Assembly: GCA_903875275.1 (NCBI GenBank)
Contig: CAIQVX010000359.1
Coordinates: 1-64,000, forward strand
Direction: 5' to 3'
Source of the DNA: an uncultured beta proteobacterium
GTDB taxonomy: Bacteria; Pseudomonadota; Gammaproteobacteria; Burkholderiales; Burkholderiaceae_C
DNA length: 64,000 nt
In this document: piece by piece, positions 14,007-38,920 of the stretch
How positions within the stretch are numbered: position 1 is the stretch's first letter
How the letters are laid out: every line of letters begins with the position of its first letter
Program-made: the position numbers and the translations under genes
Notes under the pieces: generated by a model
What the model was told of the DNA's origin: nothing
Seen by the model: the letters and a program-made list of their open reading frames with translations, nothing else
Databases searched by the model: none

Positions 14007-14501
14007 ATGGGTTGGTACCTCATCCATACCAAACCCCGACAGGAACAGCGCGCTCTGGAAAATCTGGTCAACCAGGGCTACGACTGCTATCTGCCCCTGC
14101 TGGCGACGGAAAAACTGCAGCGTGCCGTACTGAAGGTGGTGCAGGAACCTCTCTTTTCGCGCTACCTGTTCATTCACCTGGACACGCATCAAAGCAGCAA
14201 GAGCTGGACACCCATCCGGTCCACCCAGGGCGTGAGTCGCCTGGTCACCTTCGGCTCCGAGCCGGCCAAGGTGGAGTCCGAACTGATCGAGGCGCTGCGT
14301 TCAAGAATCGACCAGACCAACAGCACGCCCGAGCGTCTGTTCCAACCGGGTGAACGCGTGCAAATCAGGGACGGCTCATTTGCGGGGCTGGAGGCCATCT
14401 ACCAGATGCCCCGGGGCGAGGACCGGGCCATGGTGCTGATCGAGTTGCTGAGCAAGCCGGTGAAACTGACACTGGCTCCAGCCAGCCTGCGAAAACTGTA
14501 A
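14007..14501 (+). CDS. Specialised NusG paralogue (RfaH/UpxY-like transcription antiterminator)
   Basis: GWYLIHTKPRQEQRALENLVNQGYDCYLPLL NGN domain and FQPGERVQIRDGSFAGLEAIY KOW motif, in EPS locus. Confidence 0.88.
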   Translation: MGWYLIHTKPRQEQRALENLVNQGYDCYLPLLATEKLQRAVLKVVQEPLFSRYLFIHLDTHQSSKSWTPIRSTQGVSRLVTFGSEPAKVESELIEALRSRIDQTNSTPERLFQPGERVQIRDGSFAGLEAIYQMPRGEDRAMVLIELLSKPVKLTLAPASLRKL

Positions 14502-15902
14502 TCAGCTAAGCAGTTCTTCGGGCTGCCTGCAAACCTTTAGGCCCTGCAGTGAAAAGCCATTGCTCTTGCCCGGGTAAATGCGAACCTTGGTAAAACCGCT
14601 GCCGGTTGAAAACAAAGGTGTTTTCAGCGCATGCGCTGCATCATCACCCGGCACCGCCAATGTGAAGCGACGCGTTGCCACACCGGGCCCGGAAGCCTCC
14701 AGCGTCAGCGTTTTGGCGCCGGCGCTGGTGGCCTGGGCACTCAGGTAATCGAGCTTCTCGACCGGCTTGTCAAAGCCGATTTCGACAAAATCACTGTCGT
14801 TGGTGGCGGCAACGGCCAGGTCCGAGCCCCTGAGGTTGGCCGCGTTCGCTGCCAGTCCCAGCGGCGCCAGTCTGGCGCCCACGGCCGATGCCTTGCAACT
14901 GCGCTGCACCAGCGCAGAGACGCGCAGCAGCCATTCGGTGTTGTTGCTTGCGTAGCGGGCTTCGCGGTACATGTAGTCAGGCGGCGCGCGCATGTCGCGC
15001 TCTGGCATCTCCCAAATCATGAGTTTGGGTGGCTGTGTCTGGAAGGCATCATCGCGGAGATAGCTCTCCAGACCGACCCAGGAACCCTGATCAGCACCCA
15101 CAGAAACGCTCAGAAACTCACGCTGCAGTGCAAAGCGCAACGCATCCTGAAACCCGGTCCAGGCGCTCGAGTAGCTGCTCCCCATCAACGTCAAACCAAG
15201 GGCAGGCGCGTTGCCCAGCAGGTCCTGCTTGGCAGTTTGAGGCCGACTGACCTTGATCGGCGTCACCTGCTCGAACGCCATGATCGGTGAGTCCGGTGGC
15301 AACTGGTCTGTCAGATCCCTTCGCCTGGAAGTCTGCCGTCGCAAGTTGGTCATCTCAAATTTCTCCTCTGGCAGAGCGTCCAGTACTTTTTTCAGAGCGG
15401 AGTGTGCATCCAGCGCGGCTTTGACCGCCTGCGCCGCCACCATCGCGCCAACAGGTGTCCAGTGCGTGTCCAGCCGGTAATACAGCGGTGTTGCACTGGC
15501 GCGCTGCGGGCTGGTCATGAACGCGGTATTGAGGTCGATGATGTTGACGTGGGCGGCCTGCAGAACCTTGCTCATGCGCTCGTAATTGCCTTTCATGTAG
15601 TCATTCACCCTGACATCGTCCGGAAGGAACTCGGAATAGATGCGCATCTTCAGGGGCACCATCGCCACGGCCATGCTGATGCCATTGGCCGACAGCACTT
15701 TGTTGACACGTTGAATCAGGTCAATCGACGTACCCGTCGCCGCCATGTCGGTGGTGTCCGATATTTCGTGCCGATAGAAGAGCCAGTCGCTCTTGCCAAC
15801 AATGCCGGCGGGAGCCTCCGCCGCCGCCAGGCCGGCCATGCCGGTCGAGCTGGCGATCACTGCGCCAAAAATCCATTTCCCTGGTGTGTTGTTGTTCATC
15901 AT
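14502..15902 (-). CDS. AlgJ/AlgX-like SGNH-fold polysaccharide O-acetyltransferase protein
   Basis: GKSDWLFYRHEI, LYYRLDTHWTPVGAMVAAQAV (DxHW), GLTLMGSSYSSAW; N-terminal signal-like segment. Confidence 0.75.
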   Translation of the reverse strand: MMNNNTPGKWIFGAVIASSTGMAGLAAAEAPAGIVGKSDWLFYRHEISDTTDMAATGTSIDLIQRVNKVLSANGISMAVAMVPLKMRIYSEFLPDDVRVNDYMKGNYERMSKVLQAAHVNIIDLNTAFMTSPQRASATPLYYRLDTHWTPVGAMVAAQAVKAALDAHSALKKVLDALPEEKFEMTNLRRQTSRRRDLTDQLPPDSPIMAFEQVTPIKVSRPQTAKQDLLGNAPALGLTLMGSSYSSAWTGFQDALRFALQREFLSVSVGADQGSWVGLESYLRDDAFQTQPPKLMIWEMPERDMRAPPDYMYREARYASNNTEWLLRVSALVQRSCKASAVGARLAPLGLAANAANLRGSDLAVAATNDSDFVEIGFDKPVEKLDYLSAQATSAGAKTLTLEASGPGVATRRFTLAVPGDDAAHALKTPLFSTGSGFTKVRIYPGKSNGFSLQGLKVCRQPEELLS

Positions 15903-15933
15903 TCACTGCTCTCGTCAAAGTCAAAGTCCGGAT

Positions 15934-16641
15934 TCATTTCCCGGTGTAGCGCTCAATCTTGTTTTGCACCGCGCGCGCCGTCAGTTTGCCGCCATCGCCG
16001 GGAAGCAGCAAAACGCTGTAGGTGCCGCCCTGGGCCATGGCCAGCGAAGTACGCGCCAGTGCTGTCTTGTCGCCACTGCGGACGGCCATCAGCTCGATCG
16101 AAATCGGATTCACCAGGATCGAAGTTGACACGCCGTAAGACAGGCCCAAGAACACTTTGGTGTTGCCGTCTGCGGTGAGCACATCCAGCGTGCCGGCCTT
16201 GGCGTCAAGGTGATAGACCGTCAGCAGTGCCTTGAGTTTGTTGGAATTGGCCTTGTCCTCAAACACGGTAGGTGCCACATCCGCTCGCAAGGCAGCAAAA
16301 GCCACCGTCATGGCTCGTCCGCGCACAACATCAAGCGGTGCTGTCAGAAGCGCTGCAGACTTGCCGGATGCATGAATGGCGATGCTGTGTTTGCCGGCGC
16401 TGAGCACCATGTAGTCGCTGGCCTCACCGGCGCCAAGCTTGCGGATGCGAAGCTGGCCATCGACAAGAATGTCGACCGCCGCATCGCGACTGGCCAGCAA
16501 GACGCGCACATAAGCCGAGTCCGCTGGCGGCTCGGGGTCATAGAGCAAGCCGGCGGACTGCGCCCACAGGCCGGTACACAGGCACGCCAGCAAGGCGGCC
16601 AGCATCGGACCCCAATGTCTCGCGGAGATGCGAAATGGCAT
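15934..16641 (-). CDS. AlgF-like periplasmic O-acetylation protein
   Basis: LLYDPEPPADSAYVRVLLAS...VLSAGKHSIAIHASGK and C-terminal TYSVLLLPGDGGKLTARAVQNKIERYTGK. Confidence 0.65.
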   Translation of the reverse strand: MPFRISARHWGPMLAALLACLCTGLWAQSAGLLYDPEPPADSAYVRVLLASRDAAVDILVDGQLRIRKLGAGEASDYMVLSAGKHSIAIHASGKSAALLTAPLDVVRGRAMTVAFAALRADVAPTVFEDKANSNKLKALLTVYHLDAKAGTLDVLTADGNTKVFLGLSYGVSTSILVNPISIELMAVRSGDKTALARTSLAMAQGGTYSVLLLPGDGGKLTARAVQNKIERYTGK

Positions 16642-16693
16642 GTCAATCCTTCAAGCTCAAACAGGTTGATTTCAAACCCATGATAAACACAGA

Positions 16694-18532
16694 TCAGCGA
16701 CCGGCGCTGACCGGCGGTTGATCGAAATAGACACCCCAGACGTATTCGCCGGGGGCCATCCCCTCCAGCACCACAGCGCTGCGCCAGTTGTCCACGCTGG
16801 TTATCCTGGGCACTTTGCCTATGCCCCCGGGAGTGACCAGCCGCAGCAATGCCCCTGACTCCGGCAGGTTGACCCACACCGATACCGGCTGTCCGAGCGG
16901 ACCCGATCCGGTGACAGTGACCTTGAGCTGAATGCCGACCGCAGCACTCTCCAGTCTGGCACTGACCCGCGCGCGCTCACGCCACCAATCGGCCACCTGA
17001 GTCGCAGTGGTCACCCAGACGCGGCCGCGCCGGGCTTTGAGACTGTCAAAAAACTCTGCCAACTGCTCTTTGCTCAGCATGCTCTGCCCGGGCACACTGA
17101 CAATCGACAGTCCGGCCATTTTGTCAACCAGATCGAGTTCCGCAAGAAAGGTCTTCATGCCCACTTCCGGCTCAGCGTCAATCAAGTCTTCGGGCGGACT
17201 TTGTGTGCGCGGCAGAAACACCATCGGCCTGGCCGTATTGACCACACCCGCGCTCTGCGAGAAATAAGGCAAGCGCGCGTCGCCAGTTCCCATGAAACCG
17301 AGGAAATGGCCAACCCCGCGCTCCTGCAACAGCCTTTCTGTGGTCGCATCGTAGGAATCCATTGGGGCGCGAAAGCCGGCGCTGGTGGGGAGGTTGAATC
17401 CGGCCTCCTTCATTTCAGCGACCATGGTTTCCAACCGTTTGCCCTGCGTCACAGCCGCCTGGTCCTTGAAGCCTTCAAAGCGGTCGCCATGGTGATCCAC
17501 TTCATGGCCCTTTGACTGAATTTGCTTGAGTATTTTGGCCGATTTCGGAGCACTGTCGCTGAGCAGGTAGTAGGTTGCGCGCAGGCCTGCTTCCTCGAGG
17601 GCTTTCGCGAACAACAGGTCTGCGTCGACCATCACGTCAATCGCCCCCACCGCCACCATCAGCGCGCTGGCGTATGGGTGCGGCCAGGTGCTCACAAAAG
17701 CGTCGGGTTGGCGCAGCAGCCACATCAGTGCGTTGTGGGCAATCGCCTCCAGTGCCTTTGGATCGGCCGAGCGCCAGAGTGGTTCCGGGTAGCCCAGCAC
17801 CACTGAACGCGACAGTCTTCCGCTGCTCTGCCGACGTTCGTCAAACACAATGGTGCTGCTGGCCTTGCCCGAGCTGGCGCTACGCGACCAGTCCATCAGG
17901 TTGGCAGCCGTCTGCCCGCCGAGCATGCGCAGCGGGTACCAGCCCTGGGCATATTCAAGCCAGACTCGCAGGCCCGCAGGCAGGTCGTGCAAGACGGGGT
18001 TGTCACCGTGCAATATCAGAAACGTGTCTTCCTTCTCGCCCTCATTGGTCCCGACCACCTTGACGTCAAGGGCACTCTCCATGAAGTCATAGCCACGCCA
18101 TTCACCGCTCTCGTTGCGCACACCTGTCATCCAGGTCGACAACACGGCGCCGCCTTTGCCACGAAAGTCAATGATGGCCTGCTTCTCGCGCTCCGACAAA
18201 GCCTGGGTTGAGGGCAACAGCAAGACGCCAGGCTGCAGTTTTTCCAGTTGTTCGACCGTTTGCACCGTCTGGAAAGGGATCCGGTATTTGCGCAGGAACA
18301 GGTCCCAGGTCCGCACGCTTTCGTTGGCGTCCATACCTCTGGCCGTGAGCCGAGCGCGCGTTGTCGCCGACGCATAGAGCTGCACCCGCTGGACCCGGAT
18401 TGCGCTCGCCATGCCAACGTCCGCTGGCGTTGCTGCCACGCCAGTGCCAGGTAGCCACAGCGCCACGGAAATCAGGACCAGGCAAGCCTCTGCAAGACGC
18501 CATCCCTGCAGCCACTTATGCCGACATTGCAT
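16694..18532 (-). CDS. Polysaccharide deacetylase-like (CE4-related) protein, paralogue A
   Basis: LRATYYLLSD, EVDHHGDRFEGF, SAGFRAPMDSYDATTERLL; N-terminal domain shares LLLPS..AL..RE...I..FR.KGGA.L.TW.TG with the protein at 23649-25544. Confidence 0.7.
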   Translation of the reverse strand: MQCRHKWLQGWRLAEACLVLISVALWLPGTGVAATPADVGMASAIRVQRVQLYASATTRARLTARGMDANESVRTWDLFLRKYRIPFQTVQTVEQLEKLQPGVLLLPSTQALSEREKQAIIDFRGKGGAVLSTWMTGVRNESGEWRGYDFMESALDVKVVGTNEGEKEDTFLILHGDNPVLHDLPAGLRVWLEYAQGWYPLRMLGGQTAANLMDWSRSASSGKASSTIVFDERRQSSGRLSRSVVLGYPEPLWRSADPKALEAIAHNALMWLLRQPDAFVSTWPHPYASALMVAVGAIDVMVDADLLFAKALEEAGLRATYYLLSDSAPKSAKILKQIQSKGHEVDHHGDRFEGFKDQAAVTQGKRLETMVAEMKEAGFNLPTSAGFRAPMDSYDATTERLLQERGVGHFLGFMGTGDARLPYFSQSAGVVNTARPMVFLPRTQSPPEDLIDAEPEVGMKTFLAELDLVDKMAGLSIVSVPGQSMLSKEQLAEFFDSLKARRGRVWVTTATQVADWWRERARVSARLESAAVGIQLKVTVTGSGPLGQPVSVWVNLPESGALLRLVTPGGIGKVPRITSVDNWRSAVVLEGMAPGEYVWGVYFDQPPVSAGR

Positions 18533-18574
18533 GCTATCTCCCCCTGATCAGGTCAAATCGATTATGATGAAAAA

Positions 18575-20518
18575 ATGAGTGGAGCTCGTGCAACGATTAT
18601 GAATGATCCAGTCACCCTTTTGCCAGTTTCTCCAGCGGTACAGCTCAGTATCCGAGGGCTGGACAATCTGACCAACAACCTGATTGTGGGCGGTCTGTAC
18701 ATACTCATTGCAGAAACACCTTCAGCCCGCTTTCCGGTGCTGGCCGGGAGCCTCGGTGCCGCACTCAAGGACGGCCTGCCCTGCACCGTCATCGTACCGT
18801 CCAACCCGGAGTCTTTCATTCAGCGAATCGAGTCCTTCGGCCACTCCATCACGCCCGGGCTGACCACCAGTGATCGCCTGCAGTTCTTTGTCATGCAGGA
18901 TGAGTTTTCGAAGACGATGTTCCGCTACGGCGCTGAGGGTTTTGTCAAGGAGTTGGACCATTTTGAAGTTCCACCGGGCAGCTACCTGGTTTTTGACCAG
19001 GCCGATGAACTGCTCAGCCTGCACGATCTGTCGCTCTCGCTGGACCAGGTGGACGTCATTGGCAAATGGTTGCACGAGCGGCAGATCACCGCGCTGCTGG
19101 TTTTTTCGCGCGTCACCGAGGCTCACGCCAACACACTCAACGCCTTGATGGACAACTTGACCGGGATCGCCCGGCTTGGAGGAAACCGGGAGGGACTGGA
19201 GCTGAACTTCGACTACTGGCAGTCCCCTGACGGCACCGTTGCGGCCAAGAACTTCCGGCTGATCACGCTGGAGTCAGGGCTCTACGAAGCGGGTATGAAG
19301 TCTGTCGCGGTCGAGCAGTTTGCGGGTGAGCCTGGCGAGGAGACCGAGGTCGAACCGCAGGACCTGGAACCTCACTTCTTCTATATGGACCCGGATCTGG
19401 GCAGCGTGGCCAAACAGATGCCAGGCGTCTGGGCGCGGGTTGATACCCTGGTCGGCATGATGCACGCCAGTCGCAGCGCGCGTTCGGGTACTGTGATCCT
19501 GAGATTTCAGGGCGACACCAGCTTGCGTCAGTTGTCGGAAACTGTCCACACACTGCGCATGACCCTGGGACGGCGGGCACACATCGTGGTGCAGGAAAAG
19601 GGGGCTTCCCTGCGCTACCAGAACGAAGCCCTGCTGCTGCGTCTGGGCGCCAATCTGGTGGTGCACAAGGACGTGCCCACCAGCCGTCTGCCGCTATTGC
19701 TTGAGTCGTTGCGCGGCCAGATCTTCAGCCGCGATGTCAACATCAACTTCGAGGCGGCACTCTCCAGCGTCAACCCGAGCCGACTGCGCGGCTACCTTCT
19801 GCCTGCGCGCTTTGTGCGTGAGGTGAATATCATTCTGGAGCGCGCCGAAACCCTCAACGTGCCCTACGCCATGGTGGTTGGCAAGCCGGCACAAAGTACG
19901 ACCATGGTCGATGTCCTGATGCGCATCAAGCTCGCGCGCCCCGGCGATCTGATCACGGCCGACAACAGTTACTGCTATCTATTCCTCAACGCGTGCCCGC
20001 AAACAGTGCTGCTGACAACCCTGGAACGGCTTCTGGGCGGTGCGCTGGAGGACTCGTTCGAGGCCCCAAGATTTCTGGTGGAGAGTGCCGAAGTGGGGGC
20101 TGAACTGGCAGCCCTGACACACGCCGTCGAACACGGCGAGCTGCCAGACTATTCGTCGCTGAGCGAGCCGTTGGAGGTGATCGAGGACGCAGAGCCGGCC
20201 AGGTCGCAGGCATCGGCCGCGACAGCCCTGGCGGCAGTGGTCCCCCTTGGTGCCCCTGCCAGTGCGGCGACAGCGGCTTCGCGCTTCGTGGCACGCGATG
20301 AGGTGCGCTCCCCTGCTGACGCCCGCACCAGCAACATTCGCACCCAGCCACTACCGGGGCCCGACACCGGGGCCGAGCCCGTAGAGCCTGCACAATCGCC
20401 ATCCGCCATGCCGGTTTTTGGAAAGAAGGAAGCGCCCTGGGCCAAGCGCGCTGCGCCGCCTGCGTCCGCTACCGCTGCGGCCAGGAACACGCCTGCGCCG
20501 GCCGATCCAGCTACCTGA
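18575..20518 (+). CDS. BcsE-like protein with GIL domain (putative c-di-GMP receptor); start could be 18599
   Basis: N-terminal NTPase-like region (GGLYILIAETPSARFPVLAGSL...), GIL region with RPGD (RxGD) at 19937-19948 followed by LITADNSYCYLFLNAC; Ala/Pro-rich C-terminal tail. Confidence 0.75.
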   Translation: MSGARATIMNDPVTLLPVSPAVQLSIRGLDNLTNNLIVGGLYILIAETPSARFPVLAGSLGAALKDGLPCTVIVPSNPESFIQRIESFGHSITPGLTTSDRLQFFVMQDEFSKTMFRYGAEGFVKELDHFEVPPGSYLVFDQADELLSLHDLSLSLDQVDVIGKWLHERQITALLVFSRVTEAHANTLNALMDNLTGIARLGGNREGLELNFDYWQSPDGTVAAKNFRLITLESGLYEAGMKSVAVEQFAGEPGEETEVEPQDLEPHFFYMDPDLGSVAKQMPGVWARVDTLVGMMHASRSARSGTVILRFQGDTSLRQLSETVHTLRMTLGRRAHIVVQEKGASLRYQNEALLLRLGANLVVHKDVPTSRLPLLLESLRGQIFSRDVNINFEAALSSVNPSRLRGYLLPARFVREVNIILERAETLNVPYAMVVGKPAQSTTMVDVLMRIKLARPGDLITADNSYCYLFLNACPQTVLLTTLERLLGGALEDSFEAPRFLVESAEVGAELAALTHAVEHGELPDYSSLSEPLEVIEDAEPARSQASAATALAAVVPLGAPASAATAASRFVARDEVRSPADARTSNIRTQPLPGPDTGAEPVEPAQSPSAMPVFGKKEAPWAKRAAPPASATAAARNTPAPADPAT

Positions 20519-20598
20519 TCCGGTACGCCAAGTTGGGTACAGGCGCCGCACTATCTATGCAACAATGACACAGGAATAACTAAGGTGGCTCGACTCCC

Positions 20599-22059
20599 AT
20601 GAAACCGTTCCATTGCCCGTCAACCCTTCCATCAGGCCGCGCCAAACCGGTCAGGTCTTTGAAATGGAAGTTAGCCCCTTTTCTCTTGTCGCAGACACTG
20701 GCTTTGCCAGCGCTGGCGCAGACCACCGATTTCTCACCAAGTGCGCCCAGTGGCCGCTCGGGTCTGTCCGGTCCCGGTACGGAGCCGTTGATCCTGGCGC
20801 CATTCAAGTACATTGCACCGTCCAGTGTCGACAGCACCGACCGCGGCGCACCAACCGAACCCGCAAAGCCCAAGCGCAAGCCAGCACACCAGCGCATCGC
20901 CGATCTCAGCGCCGCCGGTGATTACAAGGCCGCTGGCACCGAGGGCCTGGCCCTGATGTCGCGGGACAAGCCCGATGAAGAGTTGCAGCTGATTGTGGCC
21001 AACAGTCTGGCCTGGACCGGTCGCCTGAAAGAGGCAGTGCCCGCGTACCAGGGACTGCGCACCGGGAAATACGCCGATCAGGCCGCCGTGGGCCTGGCCA
21101 GCATTTACCATTGGCGGGGCCGTGACGACCAGGCCTTGCCACTGTACCGGGCGGTTCTGGCCAACGATCCTGGCAACACCAGCGCTCTGGAGGGTCTCGA
21201 TCTGGCCACGCGCGAGACCGCCCCGCGCACCCTGCTCAGCTTTGGCCAGGGCCGGGATTCTGCGGATGACGAGCGCCGCTCCGTCACGCTCAGTCACCGC
21301 TGGCGCGACCGTACCGGCACCCACATTTACGAGGTGGAAACCAGCGGCGTTCTGGACACGCTGCCTGGCGTAGAGACCAGGCAGCAGGACCTGACGTTTC
21401 GTTACCAAAACGTGGGGATGGCGCTCAAACCCAGTCTGGAGTTGAGCATGCCCACCAAGGACGACAATTCCCTGTATGCCAGCGCCAGTGTCAAGCTCTT
21501 TGACGACAAGCTGAGCCTCAGTGCAGGTCGTGTCAACTTTGGACGGATGGCGACGAACCCGAAGGCACTGGCCTTGCATCTGTCGGCCATGCATATCGGC
21601 ATCACGGCATCCAGGGAATTCTCATTCGGCACGCTGCAGGGCAAGATCAATCTCTACGATGTCTCCGACGACAATCTCGTGGCAGGGGGGACCCTGCACC
21701 TGAACTCCAGTTGGAGACCGCTGGGTAGCAATTTCAAGCCCTTCATTGGCATCGAGAGCCGGGGCGCCAAATTCAACACCGCCAACTACTGGTCGCCCGA
21801 GCAGGGAATGGGCATGCTCTATTCCGGGCTGCTCGGGGAGTGGGGGTCGATGGACTGGACACTTTATGCCTCCGGCCAGATCGGCTTGCGTCTCTTTGGC
21901 GATGCCGGCACCAGCTGGAGTGTCTCCGGCGGCGGCAAGTACTGGCTGACACACAACACCGCGCTCAGTGTCAATCTCTGGTCTCTTGACAGTTGGCGCG
22001 ACAACGCCGCCTACCGGGCCCGAGCCGCCACCGTGAATCTGGAAACGCTTTGGAGATAA
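20599..22059 (+). CDS. PgaA-like outer-membrane protein: short TPR region plus beta-barrel
   Basis: RIADLSAAGDYKAAGTEGLALMSRDKPDEELQLIVANSLAWTGRLKEAVPAYQGLRTG TPR-like; C-terminal barrel ending TVNLETLWR. Confidence 0.6.
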   Translation: MKPFHCPSTLPSGRAKPVRSLKWKLAPFLLSQTLALPALAQTTDFSPSAPSGRSGLSGPGTEPLILAPFKYIAPSSVDSTDRGAPTEPAKPKRKPAHQRIADLSAAGDYKAAGTEGLALMSRDKPDEELQLIVANSLAWTGRLKEAVPAYQGLRTGKYADQAAVGLASIYHWRGRDDQALPLYRAVLANDPGNTSALEGLDLATRETAPRTLLSFGQGRDSADDERRSVTLSHRWRDRTGTHIYEVETSGVLDTLPGVETRQQDLTFRYQNVGMALKPSLELSMPTKDDNSLYASASVKLFDDKLSLSAGRVNFGRMATNPKALALHLSAMHIGITASREFSFGTLQGKINLYDVSDDNLVAGGTLHLNSSWRPLGSNFKPFIGIESRGAKFNTANYWSPEQGMGMLYSGLLGEWGSMDWTLYASGQIGLRLFGDAGTSWSVSGGGKYWLTHNTALSVNLWSLDSWRDNAAYRARAATVNLETLWR

Positions 22060-23417
22060 AGGGCGCCGGGCGCTATGCCTGGCGTTACGGCTGGGCCACT
22101 CTGGCCGTGGGCGGTGTGGCTATCTTGCTGGCTTTTAGCTACGACGCCGTGCGGGATTCCCAGGGCTCGTTCATGGTTTTGCTGCAAAACTATGTGCTGG
22201 CCGCGGTCACCTACTATCTGCTTTTCTTTCTGATCCTGCTGGTCTTGCGTTTTGCGATTCTGATCCTGTACTCCTTCATGGATCACCTCGAATCTTTGTA
22301 CAAAGTGCGTGGCAAGGAGGGCTTCAGGTACCGTGAAGACAGTTCCCTGCCGATGATCTCGTTGATCGTCCCGGCCTACAACGAGGGCCCGGTTATTCAA
22401 CCAGCGATGCGTGCCTTGCTGGCCATGGACTACCCAAATTACGAGGTCATTGTGGTCGATGACGGTTCCACAGATGACACTTATGAGAAAGCCCTCGAGG
22501 TGGCACGTAAGTCACTGGAGGTGGAGGTGCGCGTCATTACCAAGCGCAATGGCGGCAAGGCTGACGCCCTGAACACCGGCATATCCCTGGCACGCGGTGA
22601 GTTTGTTCTGAACATGGACGGCGACACCAAACTGTCCCCCAACACCTTGCGCGTCTGCATCCGGCATTTCGAGAATTCCAAGGTCGGCGCGGTCGCCGGC
22701 AACGTGAAGGTGATCAACCGCGAAAATCTCTGGACCCGGATTCAGGCACTGGAATATGTTGAGGGCCTCGCAATGGCACGCAAGGCACAGAGCTTTGGAC
22801 GGGTCGTCAACATCATCCCCGGACCGCTGGGCATGTTTCGCAAGTCGGTCCTGCAGCAAGCCGGAGGCTACGACCGAGACACTTTTGCCGAAGACTGTGA
22901 CCTGACGCTCAAACTGCTGATGCGCGGCTGGCACATTGCTTACGAACCGGCGGCCATTGCCTGGGTCGAGACACCCAGCGGCCTGCTCGACCTGCTCAAG
23001 CAGCGCTACCGCTGGACGCGTGGCATTTTGCAGGCCACCGCCAAACACAGCCACGCGTTGTGGCAGCCGCGCAAGGCCGGAATCAACTGCTATATTCTGT
23101 GGTACATGCTGTTCGAAGGCGTGATGTGGCCTTTTTCGAATCTGCTGGGCAACCTCTTCTTTGCCTTTGTCGGTCTGCAGTACGGCCTCGCCACACTGCT
23201 TTTTTACTGGTGGCTGCAACTCACCGTGCTGGACGTGGTTGCTGCAGCCTACTGTGTTGTGGTTGAAGAGGAAGAGCCTTCCCTTATTTTTTACGCCATC
23301 ATGTTCCGGCTTTTTTATATTAATATCATCGACGTGTCCAAGGTCTTTGCCACCATCGAGCAGTGGCGGGGCCAGTCAATGACATGGGGCAAGCTGGAGC
23401 GAGAAGGAAAACTCTGA
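22050..23417 (+). CDS. Processive family 2 glycosyltransferase (PgaC/IcaA/NodC-like polysaccharide synthase)
   Basis: SLIVPAYNEGPVIQPA, VIVVDDGSTDDT, LNMDGDTK, FAEDCDLTLKLLMRGW, KQRYRWTRGIL (QxxRW); TM helices both ends; likely TTG start overlapping upstream stop. Confidence 0.88.
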   Translation: MEIKGAGRYAWRYGWATLAVGGVAILLAFSYDAVRDSQGSFMVLLQNYVLAAVTYYLLFFLILLVLRFAILILYSFMDHLESLYKVRGKEGFRYREDSSLPMISLIVPAYNEGPVIQPAMRALLAMDYPNYEVIVVDDGSTDDTYEKALEVARKSLEVEVRVITKRNGGKADALNTGISLARGEFVLNMDGDTKLSPNTLRVCIRHFENSKVGAVAGNVKVINRENLWTRIQALEYVEGLAMARKAQSFGRVVNIIPGPLGMFRKSVLQQAGGYDRDTFAEDCDLTLKLLMRGWHIAYEPAAIAWVETPSGLLDLLKQRYRWTRGILQATAKHSHALWQPRKAGINCYILWYMLFEGVMWPFSNLLGNLFFAFVGLQYGLATLLFYWWLQLTVLDVVAAAYCVVVEEEEPSLIFYAIMFRLFYINIIDVSKVFATIEQWRGQSMTWGKLEREGKL

Positions 23418-23418
23418 C

Positions 23419-23649
23419 ATGGATCTTATTTCCATCCTGGCAACGGTCATTCTGATCACCACCGTCGGCACCATGGTGGTCGGCGTTGGCGCCTATGCGG
23501 CTTTCAAGCTGCGTGACAAGCGCCGTCCAAGCAGCAACCGGGCTGATGAGACTCTGAATGCCGGTGAACAGCTGGAGCCTGTGTTTCTGAGGCGCTATGT
23601 CCCTGGGGTGCCAGTTCAGGCGGCACCCGAGTCGGCACCTGATGCGTAA
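23419..23649 (+). CDS. Small single-TM protein between GT2 synthase and deacetylase
   Basis: 76 aa, MDLISILATVILITTVGTMVVGVGAYAAFKLRDKRRPSS; contiguous with flanking genes. Confidence 0.6.
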   Translation: MDLISILATVILITTVGTMVVGVGAYAAFKLRDKRRPSSNRADETLNAGEQLEPVFLRRYVPGVPVQAAPESAPDA

Positions 23650-25544
23650 TGGCGCGGCACCCGTCACTGCATCCCGCTGGAGTCAAAGTACCCGAGATTG
23701 AGCGTCGGGGACGACGCTCGTCCCTCCTGGGCCTGGGCCCGTACCTGCCGGCCATGATCATCCTGAGCCTGGCTGTGCCCTTGCTCATTTACCTGTTGTT
23801 CATGCAGTCGATGGGCTGGAATCTGCCCCTGCTTGGAATGCATGGCGCGGTCTCGGTGGCGAAACCGGCTGGCTCCAACGTCATTCTGTACAACTCGAGC
23901 AACAGCAAGTCGTATTTCGCCGGTATTGGGGGAAATTACGACGTCCTGTTGGGTCCCTGGCGCAGCTATTTTCTGAGTCGCAAGCTTGAGTTCCGGGAAG
24001 TACAGACGCCGGCTCAGTTGCACCAGCAGGACAGCGGCGTTCTGGTGCTACCCTCCGCGGTAGCCCTGAGCGACGAGGAGCGCTTTGAGATCATGGCGTT
24101 CCGCAGCAAGGGAGGCGCCATACTGGGGACCTGGGCCACTGGCACGCGCGACGGCAAGGGGGTCTGGCAAGGCTGGCAGTTTCTGGGGAATCTGGGAGTC
24201 CGAGTGATTGGTGAACTGCCCGCGAGCGCCAACGCCAACGCCCTGATCCTGACGGGAGAGTCACCGGTGTCCCACACCACCCTGGCAGGCCAGCGAATCG
24301 AATTATCCAAGACCGCGGAGTCCATGCTGCGCGCTGGTGGAGAAATGGTGGCCGGTCGTTTCATGAACTGGTCCCGCATTCCAGATGAGGAGCGCCGCGG
24401 CGAAGGTGCCGTGATTTTTTCCGAAACTTCAGAGCAATTGGGGCGATTTGCCTATTACGCCTTCGCCGAATCGGCGTGGGAAGCACACACGCTGGGAACC
24501 TATGAGGTGATCGACGACACCTTGAATTGGCTGCGGCGCGAGCCCAGCATGATTCGCGCGGCCTGGCCCGCAGGCAAGCGTGCAGCGCAAATTATCGAAA
24601 TGGACACCGAGGAGGGCTTTTCCAATGCGCTTGCCTTTGCATCAATGTTGCAGTCCATCAACTACCGTGGCACGTTTTACCTTCTAACCTCGGTGGCCAG
24701 GACCTTTCCCCAGATCGTGACCCAGTTGGCACGCGACTTTGAAATTGGTTACCACGGAGACGTTCATACCAGTTTCAAGGGCCAACCGAGCACCGATCAG
24801 GAACAGCGTCTGCGCGCCATGAAGGCTGAGTTGGCATCCCTGGCACCTGATCTGAACGGAGTCACTGGCTTTCGGGCGCCAACTGAAGGCTATGACGCGG
24901 TCACCGAGCAGCTACTGCCCAAGTTCGGCATTCGCCATCACACTGCCGATCCCAACCGCAGCAGCGCGCGCCTGCCAGTGCTGGTGCGCACCGAAGGTGG
25001 GGACCCGGCCAATACGCTCGTGGTACTTCCAAGAACCCAGCGCGATGACATCAACTTGTACTGGGAGAAGCTCAATACCGAGCAGACCACCCGGGCACTG
25101 ATTGACGATTTCGATCTGTCACTCGATACCGCCTCCCTGGGGCTGCTGAGCGTGCACAGCCAGAATTTCAAGGCAGACGGCACGCTGATCGCAGCCATGC
25201 CGGGTTTTCTCGAACATTTGAAGTTGCGTCGAGATCTGCTCTGGATGGCTTCTGCGGGTCAGGTGGCAGACTGGTGGCGCGACCGCGAACGGTTCAGATT
25301 ATCCTCGAGCGCCAGTGGCAAACGCCTGGAATTCAACATCACCATCACCGGCGATCAGCCTTTGAGCGGCGCCACCGTGATCGTGATGCTTCCGCAAAAA
25401 GGGGTTCAAGCTGTGGTAGAGGGTGCCAAGATTGGCATGGTCAAGCCCACCGTATCCAAAATTGATGACTACCGAGCGGCCATTGTGTTTGACAAGCTGG
25501 CCCCGGGCTCCTACGTTTACCAGACCACTTTCTCATCGCGATGA
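23649..25544 (+). CDS. Membrane-anchored polysaccharide deacetylase-like (CE4-related) protein, paralogue B
   Basis: N-terminal TM; FYLLTSVARTFPQIV, EIGYHGDVHTSFKGQ (HxxxH), VTGFRAPTEGYDAVTEQLLPKFGIRHH. Confidence 0.75.
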   Translation: MARHPSLHPAGVKVPEIERRGRRSSLLGLGPYLPAMIILSLAVPLLIYLLFMQSMGWNLPLLGMHGAVSVAKPAGSNVILYNSSNSKSYFAGIGGNYDVLLGPWRSYFLSRKLEFREVQTPAQLHQQDSGVLVLPSAVALSDEERFEIMAFRSKGGAILGTWATGTRDGKGVWQGWQFLGNLGVRVIGELPASANANALILTGESPVSHTTLAGQRIELSKTAESMLRAGGEMVAGRFMNWSRIPDEERRGEGAVIFSETSEQLGRFAYYAFAESAWEAHTLGTYEVIDDTLNWLRREPSMIRAAWPAGKRAAQIIEMDTEEGFSNALAFASMLQSINYRGTFYLLTSVARTFPQIVTQLARDFEIGYHGDVHTSFKGQPSTDQEQRLRAMKAELASLAPDLNGVTGFRAPTEGYDAVTEQLLPKFGIRHHTADPNRSSARLPVLVRTEGGDPANTLVVLPRTQRDDINLYWEKLNTEQTTRALIDDFDLSLDTASLGLLSVHSQNFKADGTLIAAMPGFLEHLKLRRDLLWMASAGQVADWWRDRERFRLSSSASGKRLEFNITITGDQPLSGATVIVMLPQKGVQAVVEGAKIGMVKPTVSKIDDYRAAIVFDKLAPGSYVYQTTFSSR

Positions 25545-26336
25545 GCGTGGTGTCTGGTGCGGCCGCACTAGGGCGGCGGCGCAGTGCGTGATCAACCAGC
25601 GCGCCAGTCGCACAATGTCGCGGCTGGCGTCGCAAGCACCATCATATTGAAGCAGCGGACGCTCAAAAGCGAGCGCTTCCGAAACCGCGGCGGCGCGCCC
25701 AATGGTGATCGGGCAAAGCTGTCTCTGGTAGCTGCGCTGCAGCTCGGTGCAGACCTGGGTCGCGAGTTCATTGTTCTGGGAGACTTGATTGACCAGAAGG
25801 TGCAACCCGTAAAAGTCGCTGCGTTCGCTGGTGTACTCCTGAACCAGGGTTTGCAAGCGTGCAATCGTCGCAAACGAAGCTGCATCTGCCAGCACCACCC
25901 CCAGCGCCCATTGGGACGCCAACAGTGCCTGCTGCAGGAACGCCGAAGGGCCGGGCGGCGTGTCCAGAATCACAAAGTCGAAAGCACGCTGGTCCAGTGA
26001 AAACAACTGCTCCAGAACCCAGCCCGGGTGCTGCTTCAGCATGGCTTCAAATTCTTCCAGTTCGGACTTCAGTGCCGTGCCGAACGGAATGAATTTCACA
26101 CCGAATGGACTCCTGTAGATCAACTTCGCCGTGATGCCTTCGCGCACGATGCCAGAAATGTCGCGTGGGTCCATGCCAAGATGCAATCGCAACGCATTCT
26201 GCATGTCCAGATCAATCAGCAACACACGCTGTCCTTCCTGCGCCAGAGCTATCGCCACATTGGCAGCCAGTGTCGTCTTCCCGACCCCACCCTTGGCGGA
26301 AATGAAAGAGATGACCTGCATGGATGGGTGCGGCAT
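25533..26336 (-). CDS. MinD/ParA-family ATPase, second BcsQ-like (YhjQ) protein
   Basis: SFISAKGGVGKTTLAANVAIALAQ deviant Walker A, LLIDLDMQNALRLHLGMDP, FVILDTPPGPSAFLQQALLAS. Confidence 0.85.
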   Translation of the reverse strand: MPHPSMQVISFISAKGGVGKTTLAANVAIALAQEGQRVLLIDLDMQNALRLHLGMDPRDISGIVREGITAKLIYRSPFGVKFIPFGTALKSELEEFEAMLKQHPGWVLEQLFSLDQRAFDFVILDTPPGPSAFLQQALLASQWALGVVLADAASFATIARLQTLVQEYTSERSDFYGLHLLVNQVSQNNELATQVCTELQRSYQRQLCPITIGRAAAVSEALAFERPLLQYDGACDASRDIVRLARWLITHCAAALVRPHQTPRSSR

Positions 26337-26361
26337 CAGGCCAGTGCTGCCATGGCCATCA

Positions 26362-29300
26362 TCACTGGAACCCGAAAGCCGGGCCCAAGCCGTCAAAGGC
26401 ATAGCGCAGGTAGAAACTGCCAGCCTGCTGCGAAAAATTGCGGCTGTTTTCGAAGGTCAGACGCCCACCCAGGGTGAATCTGGGAGCCAGCAGGTACTCA
26501 AACGATCCGAACAGGTTGTAGCCCAAACCCGAGCCCGATTCGGCCTCGTAGTAGGTCGGGTACAGGGCTCCCGCCTTCAGCACCCAGGCGCTCTGCAACT
26601 TTGCATCGTTCGGAAAGTAGGCTACCCGGTCCTGCGAAAATTTCTGCAGGCTGAAGTCGCCGCCGATCTGGTAGCTCAGTGCGCCACGGCGCCCCGAGAG
26701 CTCCCATGGAATACCGAGGCTGAAGTACTGCTGCGGACTGAAATAGCCGCCATGCCCGAGTGTGTAGAAGCCCAGATTGTCCCGGTACGCCATGGCGGTC
26801 ATGTTCAGTCCTGCCTTGAATTTGGCACTTGAACTCTGGTAGATCCGCCAGTACGCGCCCATGCTGGCTTCAAACTGCGTGTTGTCCTTGACACCTTGGC
26901 CGCTGAGTTGGGCTGCACCCAGGTCGGCGTACACACCGCGCTCATCGCCTCCGAAATTGAAATTGAATTGCGCTCCGGTCTTCACCACGCCACCCCAGAC
27001 TTGCAACGTCTGCGGATCGCGCATGCCGGCTGCGGAGAGCACGCTGTCGGTGACAGCGCGCCGACTCAAAACCCCTTTGAGCGTGAAATCTTCCAGACGC
27101 GTGGCAAAGCTCAGTTCGCCAACAAGATGCGTCACCAGAAAACCCAGCGGCGTGGTGCCGATCCGCAGGCTCATGTCCTCGTCGCGATAGCCGACGGACA
27201 GGCCAACGCCGCTGGCATCCTGGTCCGGCACGGGATCAAAGCCGGCCTGCAGCGGCCCCAGCCCGGCGGAACCCACCCTGGCGATATTGCCCGGATCACT
27301 GCGGTTGAGCGTACCCACGCCGAGCACTGTGGGTGTCAGTTTCAGTGTGAATGCACCGTTGCCCCCACTGGGCAGGGCCAACTCGATCGGGAATTCAAAT
27401 TCGCTCAGGCGACCCAGCCCGGGTTCCCCGGTGCGTGTGCGAAATCGCGGGGTGACGTCCATGGTCAGAGCCAGTTTCAGCTTCGTCGCGCTGATCTCGT
27501 CTTCCAGTGTGGGCTCCCTCGGCGCCGGCACGGGCGCAGGCGCGGCCGTGATGCTGCGTGCAGTGATGACTGGCGTGAGCACTTCCGGCACACGGGCCAG
27601 CGCCGGTCTGCTGGCGGACGCTACCCCTTTTGACTCACGCAGTTCCGGGATCGGCAGCAGGCCGCCGTGTTCGTTGGCCGGTGCCGCCGCCAGATCCGTA
27701 CCCCTGGCCGAGTTTGCCACCCTGGGACGCTGCAGCGCCTGCGCCCGCTCAAGATACTGCAAGGCCTGCTCCGGATTGCCGCTTTCGCGCTGCACACGTG
27801 CCATGGCCATCAATGCACGCACATCTTCAGGTGCAATTTCCAGCGCCACTTCGGCATGAAGGGCAGCCGTGTCGGGCGCTTTGGCAGCAAGCGCAACGGC
27901 AATGGCAAACAGACGGTGATCCAGGTCACCCGGTTCGCGCGCTATCACTTCCTCCGCCGTCGCCAGTGCCTTGCGTGAGTCACCCGCAGAGTTTTCAATG
28001 CGCGCCAGTGCCATCAGCAGGCGCGGCTCATCCGATCGCTCCAGAGCCTGACTGACGATGCGCAGGGCATCATCAAGCTGCCCGGTCTGACGCAGGGCAT
28101 CGATTTGGCGCAGCGTGAAGGCCAGGATGATCTTGTTGATGTCTTCCTGCTGTGTGGTGCTCAGGCGGGGCGATTGCGCCAGCGCCCGCAACACGGGGGT
28201 CAATTCCGCGTCGCGCTTGTCATCGAGCAGAACGCCCGCGTACTGGATACGCAAGTCAATGTTGTCGGCTGGCAGACGTTGGACAATGTCGCGCATCAGG
28301 CGCAATGCTTCAGCCGGCTGCCCCAGGCCCGACCAGCATCCTGCCACCAGCGCCGACAGGGAAATATCGCCGCTCGCCTGCAATTCCGCCTGCTGCGCCA
28401 CCTCCCGTGCCTGGCGCAAATTGCCCTGGGCGTACAGCTGCTGAGCACGCCGCACCTGCAGATTGACGGAAATTCGGCGCAGGTCATCCAGAATATTGGC
28501 GTTGCGGGCCGGCACCGGGATGCGCTCAATGGTTGCCAGCGCCTCAGGCCACATCTTCTGTTCTGCGTACAACAGGGCTCGGGCATGCAGTGCCTCGGGC
28601 AGCTTGGGTTGGATCGTCAGAAGGGCCTCAAGCATGGTTTGGGCGCGTCCTGGATCGCCAAGGCGCTGATACTGACGCGCCAGGGCCAGGCGTACCCAGG
28701 GATCCGCCGGATCCAGCATCAGGGCCACCTCCAGCCTGGTCACAGCCGCCCGGTAGTCTGCCGCGCGCTCATCGGCTTCCGCCAGCTTGAGCATGGCGTT
28801 GGCCTTGAGCTGGTTGAGCCCCCCCATCTTCTGGGCAGTGGCTTCGTCCAGCGTCGAGATCAGGGCCATGGCCTCAGCCTCACGTGCTGTTCGCAGCAGC
28901 ACGGCGATCAGCCCCCGAAACGCGCCTGGATCGCTGGCGGATGTCTTGAGCGCCAGGCGGTACATGGCCTCGGCCTTGTCGAGCTGGCGTTTCTCCAGCC
29001 ACAGGTCGCCCCACAGAACCTGGCCCAGGACCTGCTGGTCGTCGAGTTTGGTGGCCTGTGCCAGCTTCTCCTCGGACTCGATCAGTTTGCCGGCTTCCCG
29101 CGCTGCCACGACCTGCTGGATCAGGGTCCAGTAGTGCGCACTGTCGCGCGCCTGCTTCCATCGCCCCGCATTGCGACGGTCGCGCAGCATCGCCTGATCG
29201 AGCAGACGAAGTGCCTCTGCGAAGGATTGCTGGCGCAAGCGCACGGTTCCGAGGCCACCCAGTGAGTCCGCGTCACGCGGCTTCTTCGCCAGAATGGCTT

Positions 29301-30162
29301 CAAAACGCGCGCCTGCCGCTTCCACGTCACCCTGTTCGAGCAACGTGAAGCCTGCCTGGCTGGGTTTCTGCCGCACACCTTTCCTGGCATCGGCCAGTGA
29401 CTGGTCCAGTGCCGCGAGTCGCTCCTGCACAGCCTGATCATCAGGATTCCTGGACAAATAGCCTGTCATCAGGGCGCGGTCCGCGCGTCGCGCATCGAGC
29501 CAGACCAGCGCCTGGCTCAAACTCTGTCGCACTTCCGGATCGGCCTGACTCATGGCCGACAGACGGCGTATGCCTTCGCGCCGCGTTGCCTCCCGGTAAG
29601 TCAGGTGCCGCGCCAGCGCGAACACATAGCGCGGATTCTCAGGGCTGGCACGTACCAGTTCCTCCAGACCGCCGCGCGCCTCATCCCAGCCCTCCCGGGT
29701 CGCACCGAGGGTCTGGTAGTACTCCAGGCCCAGTTGCCCGGTCGGCTTGCTGGTACCCAGGGCGCTGCGGTAGTTGCTGGCAGCGGCTTCCGGTTGACCG
29801 GCTTGCGCCAGTTTGCGTGCAGCACGGATAGCAGGCGCGTTTTTTCCGGCCCTGAGCGCCATCTCGAGTTCTGCCAGACCCGCTGGCGCTGCCGCCAGTT
29901 GGGTTGCCCGCAGGTAGAGCTCCTGTGCCTGCGCCAGTTGGCCAGCGCGCGCCTGAAGGACGCCCAGTCGCACCAGCCCCTCGGGATGATTCGCATCGGC
30001 GCGCAGCAGTTTCTGCCAGGCCCCGATCGCAAGATCATCCCGGCCGCTCTGCTGCCAGTAGCGTGCCTGCTCCACCAGCTTGCGGGTAGCCGCATCGTCA
30101 GCCGCCCAGGCCGATGAAAGACCACTGCCAAGCGCAACAATCAGAAGAATCAGTTTTTTCAT
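26362..30162 (-). CDS. bcsC: Cellulose synthase complex outer-membrane TPR/porin subunit BcsC
   Basis: ~1266 aa, signal peptide MKKLILLIVALGSGLSSAWA, many TPRs, C-terminal BcsC barrel ending GSFYLRYAFDGLGPAFGFQ; in bcs operon. Confidence 0.93.
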   Translation of the reverse strand: MKKLILLIVALGSGLSSAWAADDAATRKLVEQARYWQQSGRDDLAIGAWQKLLRADANHPEGLVRLGVLQARAGQLAQAQELYLRATQLAAAPAGLAELEMALRAGKNAPAIRAARKLAQAGQPEAAASNYRSALGTSKPTGQLGLEYYQTLGATREGWDEARGGLEELVRASPENPRYVFALARHLTYREATRREGIRRLSAMSQADPEVRQSLSQALVWLDARRADRALMTGYLSRNPDDQAVQERLAALDQSLADARKGVRQKPSQAGFTLLEQGDVEAAGARFEAILAKKPRDADSLGGLGTVRLRQQSFAEALRLLDQAMLRDRRNAGRWKQARDSAHYWTLIQQVVAAREAGKLIESEEKLAQATKLDDQQVLGQVLWGDLWLEKRQLDKAEAMYRLALKTSASDPGAFRGLIAVLLRTAREAEAMALISTLDEATAQKMGGLNQLKANAMLKLAEADERAADYRAAVTRLEVALMLDPADPWVRLALARQYQRLGDPGRAQTMLEALLTIQPKLPEALHARALLYAEQKMWPEALATIERIPVPARNANILDDLRRISVNLQVRRAQQLYAQGNLRQAREVAQQAELQASGDISLSALVAGCWSGLGQPAEALRLMRDIVQRLPADNIDLRIQYAGVLLDDKRDAELTPVLRALAQSPRLSTTQQEDINKIILAFTLRQIDALRQTGQLDDALRIVSQALERSDEPRLLMALARIENSAGDSRKALATAEEVIAREPGDLDHRLFAIAVALAAKAPDTAALHAEVALEIAPEDVRALMAMARVQRESGNPEQALQYLERAQALQRPRVANSARGTDLAAAPANEHGGLLPIPELRESKGVASASRPALARVPEVLTPVITARSITAAPAPVPAPREPTLEDEISATKLKLALTMDVTPRFRTRTGEPGLGRLSEFEFPIELALPSGGNGAFTLKLTPTVLGVGTLNRSDPGNIARVGSAGLGPLQAGFDPVPDQDASGVGLSVGYRDEDMSLRIGTTPLGFLVTHLVGELSFATRLEDFTLKGVLSRRAVTDSVLSAAGMRDPQTLQVWGGVVKTGAQFNFNFGGDERGVYADLGAAQLSGQGVKDNTQFEASMGAYWRIYQSSSAKFKAGLNMTAMAYRDNLGFYTLGHGGYFSPQQYFSLGIPWELSGRRGALSYQIGGDFSLQKFSQDRVAYFPNDAKLQSAWVLKAGALYPTYYEAESGSGLGYNLFGSFEYLLAPRFTLGGRLTFENSRNFSQQAGSFYLRYAFDGLGPAFGFQ

Positions 30163-30167
30163 TTGAA

Positions 30168-31304
30168 TCACATTGTGCATGACGAACCCACTCCCCATTG
30201 CAAGCGACCGTCCGGCGCAAACCGGAAACGCTGATCCATCCATCCCAGGGCAAACAGCCCCAGGGCCTGCTCATAGTAAACCGACGGAACGCCACCCATT
30301 GCAATAATTCTGAGTCGCTGCTGTCGGGCTGCCGATCTGGCTCCCACGGCCTCCAGAAAGGGCAGCAGGGCCGCTGAAAAGCCGCCCGGGCCACTGCCCC
30401 CCTGGGCCCGACCCGAACTGGCATCCACCATGACCGGCGGCACCAGCAGCTGCTCAACCAGCCTCGTCATCCCCTTCATGCGCGCCAACAAACGCACACG
30501 GTAAGGGTCTTCGACCGGGGTCATGGCCGCCCAGAGATAGGTCCGGATGGCGTCAAAACCACCCTTGAAACCGATCGCCGGATCGAGCACGAAGCCGCGC
30601 TCCGACACCGCAACCCAGTCTGGCACCAGGTACTGTGGTGTGACCGATTCCAGCATGCTGACGGTGCTGTCCGCCAGCGCAGTCCACACGCCGGACGGCA
30701 CCTCCGTGGCCAGCCCGCGCAGCACCGGCATGGGCAGGTAGCTCGGGTTGAGCTGCCAGCCTCCACTCTTCAGGGCAAAGCCCTGCGGCCCGGGCAGCAA
30801 CACCGGGCCCAGGCCCGCCACATTAATCACAAGTTCCTTTTGAATGCGCGCCTGCATCAGTTCTGCACTGGCTTGCAGGCTGCTGTCAGGCCAGCGTCGT
30901 GCCGCCTGAAACAGGACATAGACCAGCCAGAGATCAGCGTCGCTGGCCGCGTTGCTGTCCAGCACGCCCCAGCTACCGTCGATGCGCCGGCCCCAGTGCC
31001 AGGCCAGCAACCGCGCAGACAGGTCGCCCTGTGCCAGATTGGCGCGGGTCCAGCTCAGCAGCCGATCAAACGTGGAACGGTCGTTGGCGACGAGCGCAAA
31101 GAACATGGCGTAGGCCTGCCCTTCCGAGGTCGAGTGACTGTCCGCGGAATAATCGACAACACGTCCGTCGCCCTGAATGAACTTCTCCCTGAACGTGATC
31201 CAGTCCGGCCAGCTGTCGCAATTCGCCGCCAGCGAGTCCGTCAGCGGGCTGGTGGCGGCGGCCAGCGCGGTCAGCACACTCAGGAAGTGCCGCCGCGACT
31301 TCAT
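30168..31304 (-). CDS. bcsZ: GH8 endoglucanase BcsZ
   Basis: W..F...FI..DGRVVDYSADSHSTSEGQAYAMFFALVANDRSTFDRLLSWTRANL GH8 signature; position in bcs operon. Confidence 0.93.
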   Translation of the reverse strand: MKSRRHFLSVLTALAAATSPLTDSLAANCDSWPDWITFREKFIQGDGRVVDYSADSHSTSEGQAYAMFFALVANDRSTFDRLLSWTRANLAQGDLSARLLAWHWGRRIDGSWGVLDSNAASDADLWLVYVLFQAARRWPDSSLQASAELMQARIQKELVINVAGLGPVLLPGPQGFALKSGGWQLNPSYLPMPVLRGLATEVPSGVWTALADSTVSMLESVTPQYLVPDWVAVSERGFVLDPAIGFKGGFDAIRTYLWAAMTPVEDPYRVRLLARMKGMTRLVEQLLVPPVMVDASSGRAQGGSGPGGFSAALLPFLEAVGARSAARQQRLRIIAMGGVPSVYYEQALGLFALGWMDQRFRFAPDGRLQWGVGSSCTM

Positions 31305-31342
31305 GCGAACCAGTTGTCTGCCGACCGACACCGCCGCGCACC

Positions 31343-36698: not shown

Positions 36699-36971
36699 TC
36701 AGCCCCTGGACCTCGCCTTTTCCCTGATCCTGGCACCGCCCTCAAGGCGACCAAAGACCTGGCTCAGCGGACTGTATTCCAACCAGCCCTGTTTTTGCTG
36801 CGCTGACAGGGGCGGCGGCATGACACGCTGGTCAGGCGCCATGGACTTCATCAAGGGCCATTTGTTCTCTGCAAGGTCAGCATCGGCGTCGCGGTTGAAC
36901 TCCCTGAATTCACTGCTGCCGGACCAGAAAGTCCGAAACAGCGCACCCGCATCGTCGACACGTTTCGACAT
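36699..36971 (-). CDS. BcsP/BcsR-like small cellulose biosynthesis protein
   Basis: 90 aa MSKRVDDAGALFRTFWSGSSEFREFNRDADADLAENKWPLMKSM; KWPL motif and position immediately upstream of bcsQ. Confidence 0.6.
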   Translation of the reverse strand: MSKRVDDAGALFRTFWSGSSEFREFNRDADADLAENKWPLMKSMAPDQRVMPPPLSAQQKQGWLEYSPLSQVFGRLEGGARIREKARSRG

Positions 36972-37074
36972 CTTCACGTCCCCAGTGTTCGCACGCGCCG
37001 ACTCTCGCGCCTGGTCCGGAGGGATTATGGGGCATTTCAACTGCACCCGCCCCTGCAGCGGCGATGTAAACGCC

Positions 37075-37713: not shown

Positions 37714-37725
37714 TTGAAGCACATT

Positions 37726-38769: not shown

Positions 38770-38920
38770 TGCCGCGGAAGAGCGGGGATGGACCGTGGGG
38801 GCAGGGGTTGCTAAGATCACAGCCCCGATCTTATGCAACACGGCGTCGTCCAGGCGATGCCAAACCGGCTCCAGCAGCGGCGAAGCCGTAACCTCAACCG
38901 CGTGTATTGAAAGGAACGTC

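Follow-up and report, generated by a model that had tools for sequence, protein, structure and literature searches.

A candidate synthase-dependent exopolysaccharide locus combining a BcsE homologue, a PgaC-like glycosyltransferase, and alginate-type acetylation proteins in the Burkholderiales

The window considered here, 64,000 nucleotides of contig CAIQVX010000359.1 from an uncultured beta proteobacterium of the Burkholderiales, carries eight genes between positions 14502 and 25544 that resemble parts of several exopolysaccharide (EPS) systems. Synthase-dependent EPS systems are usually sorted into cellulose, acetylated cellulose, poly-N-acetylglucosamine (PNAG), Pel, and alginate types. The eight genes form two divergent blocks whose starts are ~40 bases apart: a minus-strand block (algX, algF, and a deacetylase homologue, deacA), and a plus-strand block, called the GT2 block below (bcsE and genes for a tetratricopeptide repeat (TPR) barrel protein, a family 2 glycosyltransferase (GT2), a small transmembrane (TM) protein, and a second deacetylase homologue, deacB). 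This arrangement had been proposed from the sequence alone; all eight genes are present at the coordinates given in that original prediction, and Pfam searches bear most of them out. Domain searches also confirm the predicted placement between a wza/wzc locus (wza, wzc, GT4, and RfaH genes) on the left and a full cellulose (bcs) operon on the right, the latter with a PilZ-bearing BcsA and no bcsE of its own. The features are as follows:

14007–14501, plus strand: RfaH-type antiterminator (TIGR01955, 185.9 bits)
14502–15902, minus strand: AlgX/AlgJ-like SGNH O-acetyltransferase with an extra C-terminal domain (PF16822, ALGX, 2.6e-55, 188 bits)
15934–16641, minus strand: AlgF-like periplasmic protein (PF11182, 5.4e-15, 56 bits, above cut-off)
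16694–18532, minus strand: CE4-fold paralogue, “deacetylase A,” predicted to be catalytically dead (PF01522, 3.7e-8)
18575–20518, plus strand: BcsE with an RPGD (RxxD) cyclic di-GMP (c-di-GMP) I-site (PF10995, CBP_BcsE, 2.4e-68, 232 bits)
20599–22059, plus strand: predicted outer-membrane exporter, TPR plus 16-strand barrel (AlphaFold model, Foldseek)
22050–23417, plus strand: processive GT2 synthase with D, DxD, ED, and QRYRW motifs (PF13641, Glyco_tranf_2_3, 6.4e-39, 135 bits)
23419–23649, plus strand: small single-TM protein of 76 residues (sequence, alignments)
23649–25544, plus strand: predicted membrane-anchored CE4 de-N-acetylase “B” with its metal site preserved (PF01522, 1.4e-6)
25533–36662, minus strand: complete cellulose operon, bcsQ-C-Z-B-A-Q (PF06564, PF05420, PF01270, PF03170, PF07238)

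The GT2 block was found in nine proteobacterial genomes: that of the window (G000); a beta-proteobacterial metagenome-assembled genome (MAG; G671, locus L021); a Gallionella MAG (G251, locus L022); two more from the family of G251 (G719 and G730); and four from the window's own family (G938, G836, G904, and G945). A core of barrel, GT2, small TM, and deacB genes is conserved in all nine, with bcsE ahead of it in eight. Because the same gene order recurs in genomes of several families at 30–80% protein identity, the cluster is more than a chance assemblage. It is also rare: a search by deacetylase B found it in one other genome of 300 from the order, and it is present in three of 159 genomes of the family of G251 and five of 261 of the window's own, G000 counted. 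Among 399 genomes of the phylum there was no true block besides that of G000, a single further match reaching only 36%, and a search of a plasmid collection gave no relative of deacetylase B and GT2 matches of 35–38% only. A contig scan with two narrow peptide patterns gave three loci; the homology search of genomes was more sensitive.

Co-occurrence of the two blocks, whose absence the original prediction had named as evidence against itself, is partial. The algX gene is beside the GT2 block in G000, L021, G251, G938, and G836, and on an abutting contig in G904 (six of nine), and algF accompanies the block in the same genomes except L021; in G938 and G836 both are with the GT2 block although no bcs operon adjoins. 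G719, G730, and G945 have the GT2 block with no algX beside it. In the order sample of 300, a close AlgX and deacetylase B each turn up in just one genome besides that of the window, and both times it is G251; under random placement such a coincidence has, by our arithmetic, a chance of about 1 in 300.

The processive GT2 with a QxxRW motif is borne out by QRYRW and PF13641. Its open reading frame (ORF) opens at 21993, and an in-frame TTG at 22050, overlapping the stop codon of the barrel gene, is probably the start. Copies in beta-proteobacteria are 58–82% identical to that of the window. The best NCBIfam model is PgaC_IcaA, at 219.1 bits against a cut-off of 422.3, and identity to Escherichia coli PgaC is 31–34% across the catalytic core, so a high-identity match to a characterised operon, which would have counted against the original proposal, was not found. 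For the barrel protein, which is kept in all nine genomes, Pfam detects only TPRs at the sequence level; its AlphaFold model (mean pLDDT 74) has TPR helices and 16 strands, and the best Protein Data Bank matches found by Foldseek are BcsC, PelB, and the PgaA barrel (target TM-score 0.68 for PgaA). The PgaA model gives 21.9 bits against a cut-off of 366.65. The “Pga” labels first attached to these genes therefore hold for architecture and barrel fold, but not by model score, both being far under their cut-offs.

BcsE, predicted as a BcsE-like GIL protein, is confirmed by its PF10995 match and by an RPGD site that aligns with E. coli RTGD; an RxGD c-di-GMP motif is present in seven of the eight GT2-linked copies. 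In a tree with five of these copies they form a separate clade on a long branch, with support of 100/100, apart from cellulose-linked BcsE. BcsE is rare in the order sample (nine of 300 genomes), where the other seven adjoin bcs genes or bcsF/bcsG; the GT2-linked copy is the sole BcsE in the five GT2-block genomes searched, including that of the window. In E. coli, the single-TM peptide BcsF recruits BcsE, its tail in the cytosol contributing an extra strand to the N-terminal domain of BcsE (PMC11470070). The small TM protein of the GT2 block has the same layout as E. coli BcsF and a conserved tail, (E/N)P(I/V)FLxR, where E. coli BcsF has Pro-Arg-Tyr; this motif is kept in G945, where the block lacks a neighbouring bcsE. 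By analogy it is a possible BcsF counterpart, but it belongs to no Pfam family and gives no BLAST or Pfam match to BcsF, and the likeness is therefore a lead rather than a claim of membership.

The AlgJ-like and AlgF-like predictions held up as well, by PF16822, PF11182, and phmmer alignment of AlgX to the AlgJ (4o8v) and AlgX (7ula) structures, in which DTHW and GSSYS line up; the Asp-x-His and Ser motifs are kept in all six block-linked homologues. An AlgI membrane-bound O-acyltransferase (MBOAT) and AlgJ are encoded on another contig (C98) of the window's genome, and in G251 such a pair flanks the block. In G671 (L047:238-5835, L021:1092-1361) the genes after algX encode an AMP-binding ligase, a carrier protein of the phosphopantetheine type, a GNAT, and an MBOAT, with no algF in L021; as judged from these families, this set suggests a different acyl donor route, perhaps with a group other than acetate being transferred.

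The two deacetylase homologues (34 and 29 bits to Polysacc_deac_1) differ in what they retain. In B, the Asp-His-His metal ligands are intact in nine of nine orthologues, as are the motifs MDTE, HGDVH (HxxxH), GFRxP, and SVH, G904 having HAEVH with both His retained. In A, the ligands are kept in none of four: the window, L021, G251, and G938 have all lost MDTE, the second His of HxxxH, and LSVH with the motif-5 His, so A is most likely a non-catalytic CE4 paralogue. Of the two deacetylases originally predicted, then, both are CE4 homologues, and only B appears equipped for catalysis. A verrucomicrobial MAG (L023:1040-11734) encodes a long TPR protein, relatives of both deacetylases, a GT2, and a small TM protein, with neither BcsE nor BcsB, and looks from its gene content like a reduced relative of the system; in the deacetylase tree its two sequences are long branches whose placement is not trusted.

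The bcs genes, at first regarded as a flank, turn out to belong to the story. Five of the nine genomes (G000, G671, G938, G945, and G904) have a bcs operon whose BcsA lacks catalytic motifs, here called BcsA'. In G000 this is a second bcs locus, on contig C98 (L026:432-10437), with bcsD, bcsP, bcsQ, bcsA', bcsB, a bcsC encoding 169 residues and no barrel, bcsQ, and the AlgI MBOAT and AlgJ genes; a PEP-CTERM protein gene and a second polysaccharide export set follow. DDG, DxD, TED, QxxRW, and the PilZ RxxxR are degraded in all four complete copies (G000, G671, G945, G938), where scattered single motif letters remain, and are kept in six of six true BcsA. In G945 and G904, the GT2-small TM-deacB genes run straight into bcsD-bcsP-bcsQ-bcsA', with a protein without a Pfam match in the bcsD place in G904. 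Two G904 contigs both end within bcsA', so their join is inferred; the full order is likely bcsE-barrel-GT2-small TM-deacB-bcsD-P-Q-A'-B-Q-GH18-algI-algJ, convergent with deacA-algF-algX. In three genomes, G945, G904, and G938 (where it is complete on one contig), the dead-BcsA operon is the only bcs operon found and holds the sole BcsB. Judging by these genes, a functional cellulose synthase is therefore probably lacking in all three, which leaves the scaffold to some other use. It is a frequent, not an obligatory, partner of the GT2 block.

Each of the known systems compared shares features with this locus. Like the E. coli type II Bcs system (bcsRQABZC-bcsEFG; PMC7439463, PMC11470070), it has a BcsE with RxxD, a small single-TM protein encoded in one operon with it, a TPR-barrel exporter, and BcsQ nearby, but its bcsE belongs to a distinct clade and shares an operon with a PgaC-like GT2, that operon's own barrel, and a CE4 deacetylase, and neither the block nor the adjacent bcs operon has a gene annotated as the BcsG phosphoethanolamine transferase. 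With pgaABCD it shares a GT2 with QxxRW, a TPR-barrel exporter, and a CE4 deacetylase, to which BcsE, AlgX, and AlgF are added here; there is no alignable similarity to E. coli PgaA, PgaB, or PgaD, and deacetylase B is CE4 only, with no PgaB C-terminal hydrolase domain. The Wss acetylated cellulose system (PMC7112194) likewise combines bcs genes with alginate-type acetylation proteins, and AlgI/AlgJ are next to bcs on C98, but it is defined by a competent cellulose synthase with AlgI/AlgJ in its operon; the window's bcs operon has no AlgI, the C98 BcsA' is catalytically dead, and there is in addition a second GT2 along with a barrel and a deacetylase. AlgX/AlgJ and AlgF homologues are shared with the Pseudomonas alginate operon, and no alg8, alg44, algK, algE, algG, or algL was found among the block domains. 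The sfz/sfb iron-stalk clusters, GT2-type EPS clusters reported in Gallionellaceae too, have a BcsB-like Sfz1 and an EpsE-GT2 fusion, Sfz2, with no BcsE, CE4, or AlgX reported (PMC8250860); this identity was considered since Gallionella has the block, and rejected because an EpsE domain is absent from the GT2 and BcsB from the block. The locus thus appears to work like a synthase-dependent EPS system yet lacks defining features of each type checked: pga, alginate, type II bcs, Wss, and sfz. The original prediction had not recognised the combination as a described operon type, and no description was found in the literature searched, which is weak evidence because the search covered open access only.

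On balance, and reading from sequence, the block probably supplies what a distinct synthase-dependent exopolysaccharide needs: a synthase, an exporter, and modifying enzymes. A more tentative proposal, which we hold with some reserve, is that a cellulose scaffold has been converted: BcsA would be a non-catalytic platform, the PgaC-like GT2 and its own barrel would synthesise and export, and BcsE, BcsQ, BcsD, BcsP, and the alginate-type acetylation proteins would act on a GlcNAc-type polymer. The established activities of three families hint at such a polymer, with beta linkage: CE4, PgaC/NodC-like GT2, and GH18, whose genes (6e-14 to 8e-25, catalytic Glu kept) follow the block in G251, G719, and G836 and are inside the dead-BcsA operon in G938 and G904. 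From gene content, order, conservation, motif state, barrel fold, and the BcsE clade, we infer substrate, linkage, interactions, and regulation as follows. The GT2 would build a HexNAc polymer across the inner membrane, beta-linked GlcNAc being the likeliest unit; deacetylase B would take off part of the N-acetyl groups in the periplasm; its paralogue A probably binds or steers the polymer and leaves it uncut; O-acetyl groups would be added by AlgX and AlgF together with the AlgI/AlgJ pair (on the other contig in G000); and the TPR/16-strand barrel would export the chain. BcsE would sense c-di-GMP, perhaps held at the membrane by the small TM protein as by BcsF in E. coli. In several relatives, and probably here, BcsB, two BcsQ, BcsD, and BcsP around a non-catalytic BcsA would form the inner-membrane platform; where BcsA' is absent, a normal Bcs complex may tie the components to one another. 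The hybrid polymer originally proposed thus retains its acetylation, deacetylation, and BcsE sensor genes within a synthase-dependent EPS locus, with one of its two deacetylases apparently dead.

Several observations weigh against this interpretation. The dead scaffold is not universal, since the only BcsA of G251, G719, G730, and G836 is a normal one, and G719 and G730 have no algX/algF/deacA block. Control by c-di-GMP through BcsE is not universal either, since G945 has no adjacent bcsE and the G904 copy is truncated. The window has no GH18, the verrucomicrobial relatives of both deacetylases have no catalytic residues, and the AlphaFold model of deacetylase B is poor (pLDDT 50) and was not used. 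The CE4 and GT2 families do not fix sugar or linkage. Finally, a bcs operon is present in each of the nine genomes, and cellulose could thus be the product that BcsE and AlgX/AlgF serve.

This last point is the basis of an explanation that we regard as unlikely, though it deserves serious consideration: BcsE would regulate the adjacent cellulose synthase and AlgX/AlgF would acetylate cellulose as in Wss, leaving the GT2 and deacetylase B to make a separate polymer. The window's bcs operon is complete, with PilZ on its BcsA, and the genome's only BcsE is the one in the block; in G719 the bcs operon contains a different AlgF/AlgI/AlgJ set. This operon (L063:752-14087) encodes a barrel-less BcsC of 633 amino acids and, further on, AlgF-like, AlgI, AlgJ, and two SGNH-like proteins; it may be for acetylated cellulose that leaves through a borrowed exporter. 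However, bcsE is first in the GT2 operon in G719, G730, G938, and G836, where bcs is elsewhere; algX and algF go with the GT2 block and not with bcs in G938 and G836; and G938 retains a BcsE with RxGD though the BcsA of its one bcs operon is dead.

If instead this were a divergent operon for poly-beta-1,6-GlcNAc, with the GT2 as PgaC, the barrel as PgaA, deacetylase B as PgaB, and the small TM protein as PgaD, the shared architecture, the PgaC_IcaA best model, and the PgaA barrel match would be expected. We consider this improbable, given model scores so far under the cut-offs, the lack of alignable similarity to three of the E. coli proteins, the missing PgaB hydrolase domain, and the presence of BcsE and AlgX, which are foreign to pga. 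Decay, or a chance gathering of EPS genes where polysaccharide loci are rapidly reshuffled, could account for the rarity of the block in the order, for the variable presence of algX, algF, deacA, and bcsE, and for the truncated bcsE of G904; this is already disfavoured, and very improbable, in view of intact frames, invariant active-site residues, and an order conserved at such divergence across several families.

Some neighbouring genes may be noted. The RfaH-type gene, on the wza/wzc side, ends one base ahead of algX, and its product could act on long EPS operons. At positions 1–2000, in the wza/wzc EPS region, GC content is 0.44 against about 0.62, with methyltransferase and acyltransferase genes, a possible recent import. 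Upstream of the second bcsQ, on the minus strand at 36699–39006, are genes for a BcsR-like protein (weak), a metallo-beta-lactamase, and a DUF3108 protein; these are likelier than the plus-strand ORFs at 36820–39664, which are probably spurious. Adjoining the bcs operon at 39703–43053 (plus strand) is the gene for an adenylate-cyclase-like, AAA, and TPR protein, 74% conserved and in the same place in G671 (L048).

The locus crosses the borders of the usual EPS types and recurs in several families. If the proposed conversion of the cellulose scaffold is correct, that scaffold and the c-di-GMP sensor BcsE would be separable from cellulose synthesis, and the roles of BcsE and BcsQ would become testable against a different synthase. 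The reading of the locus would also predict that Burkholderiales and relatives of the iron-oxidising Gallionella have a matrix polymer that is O-acetylated and partly de-N-acetylated.

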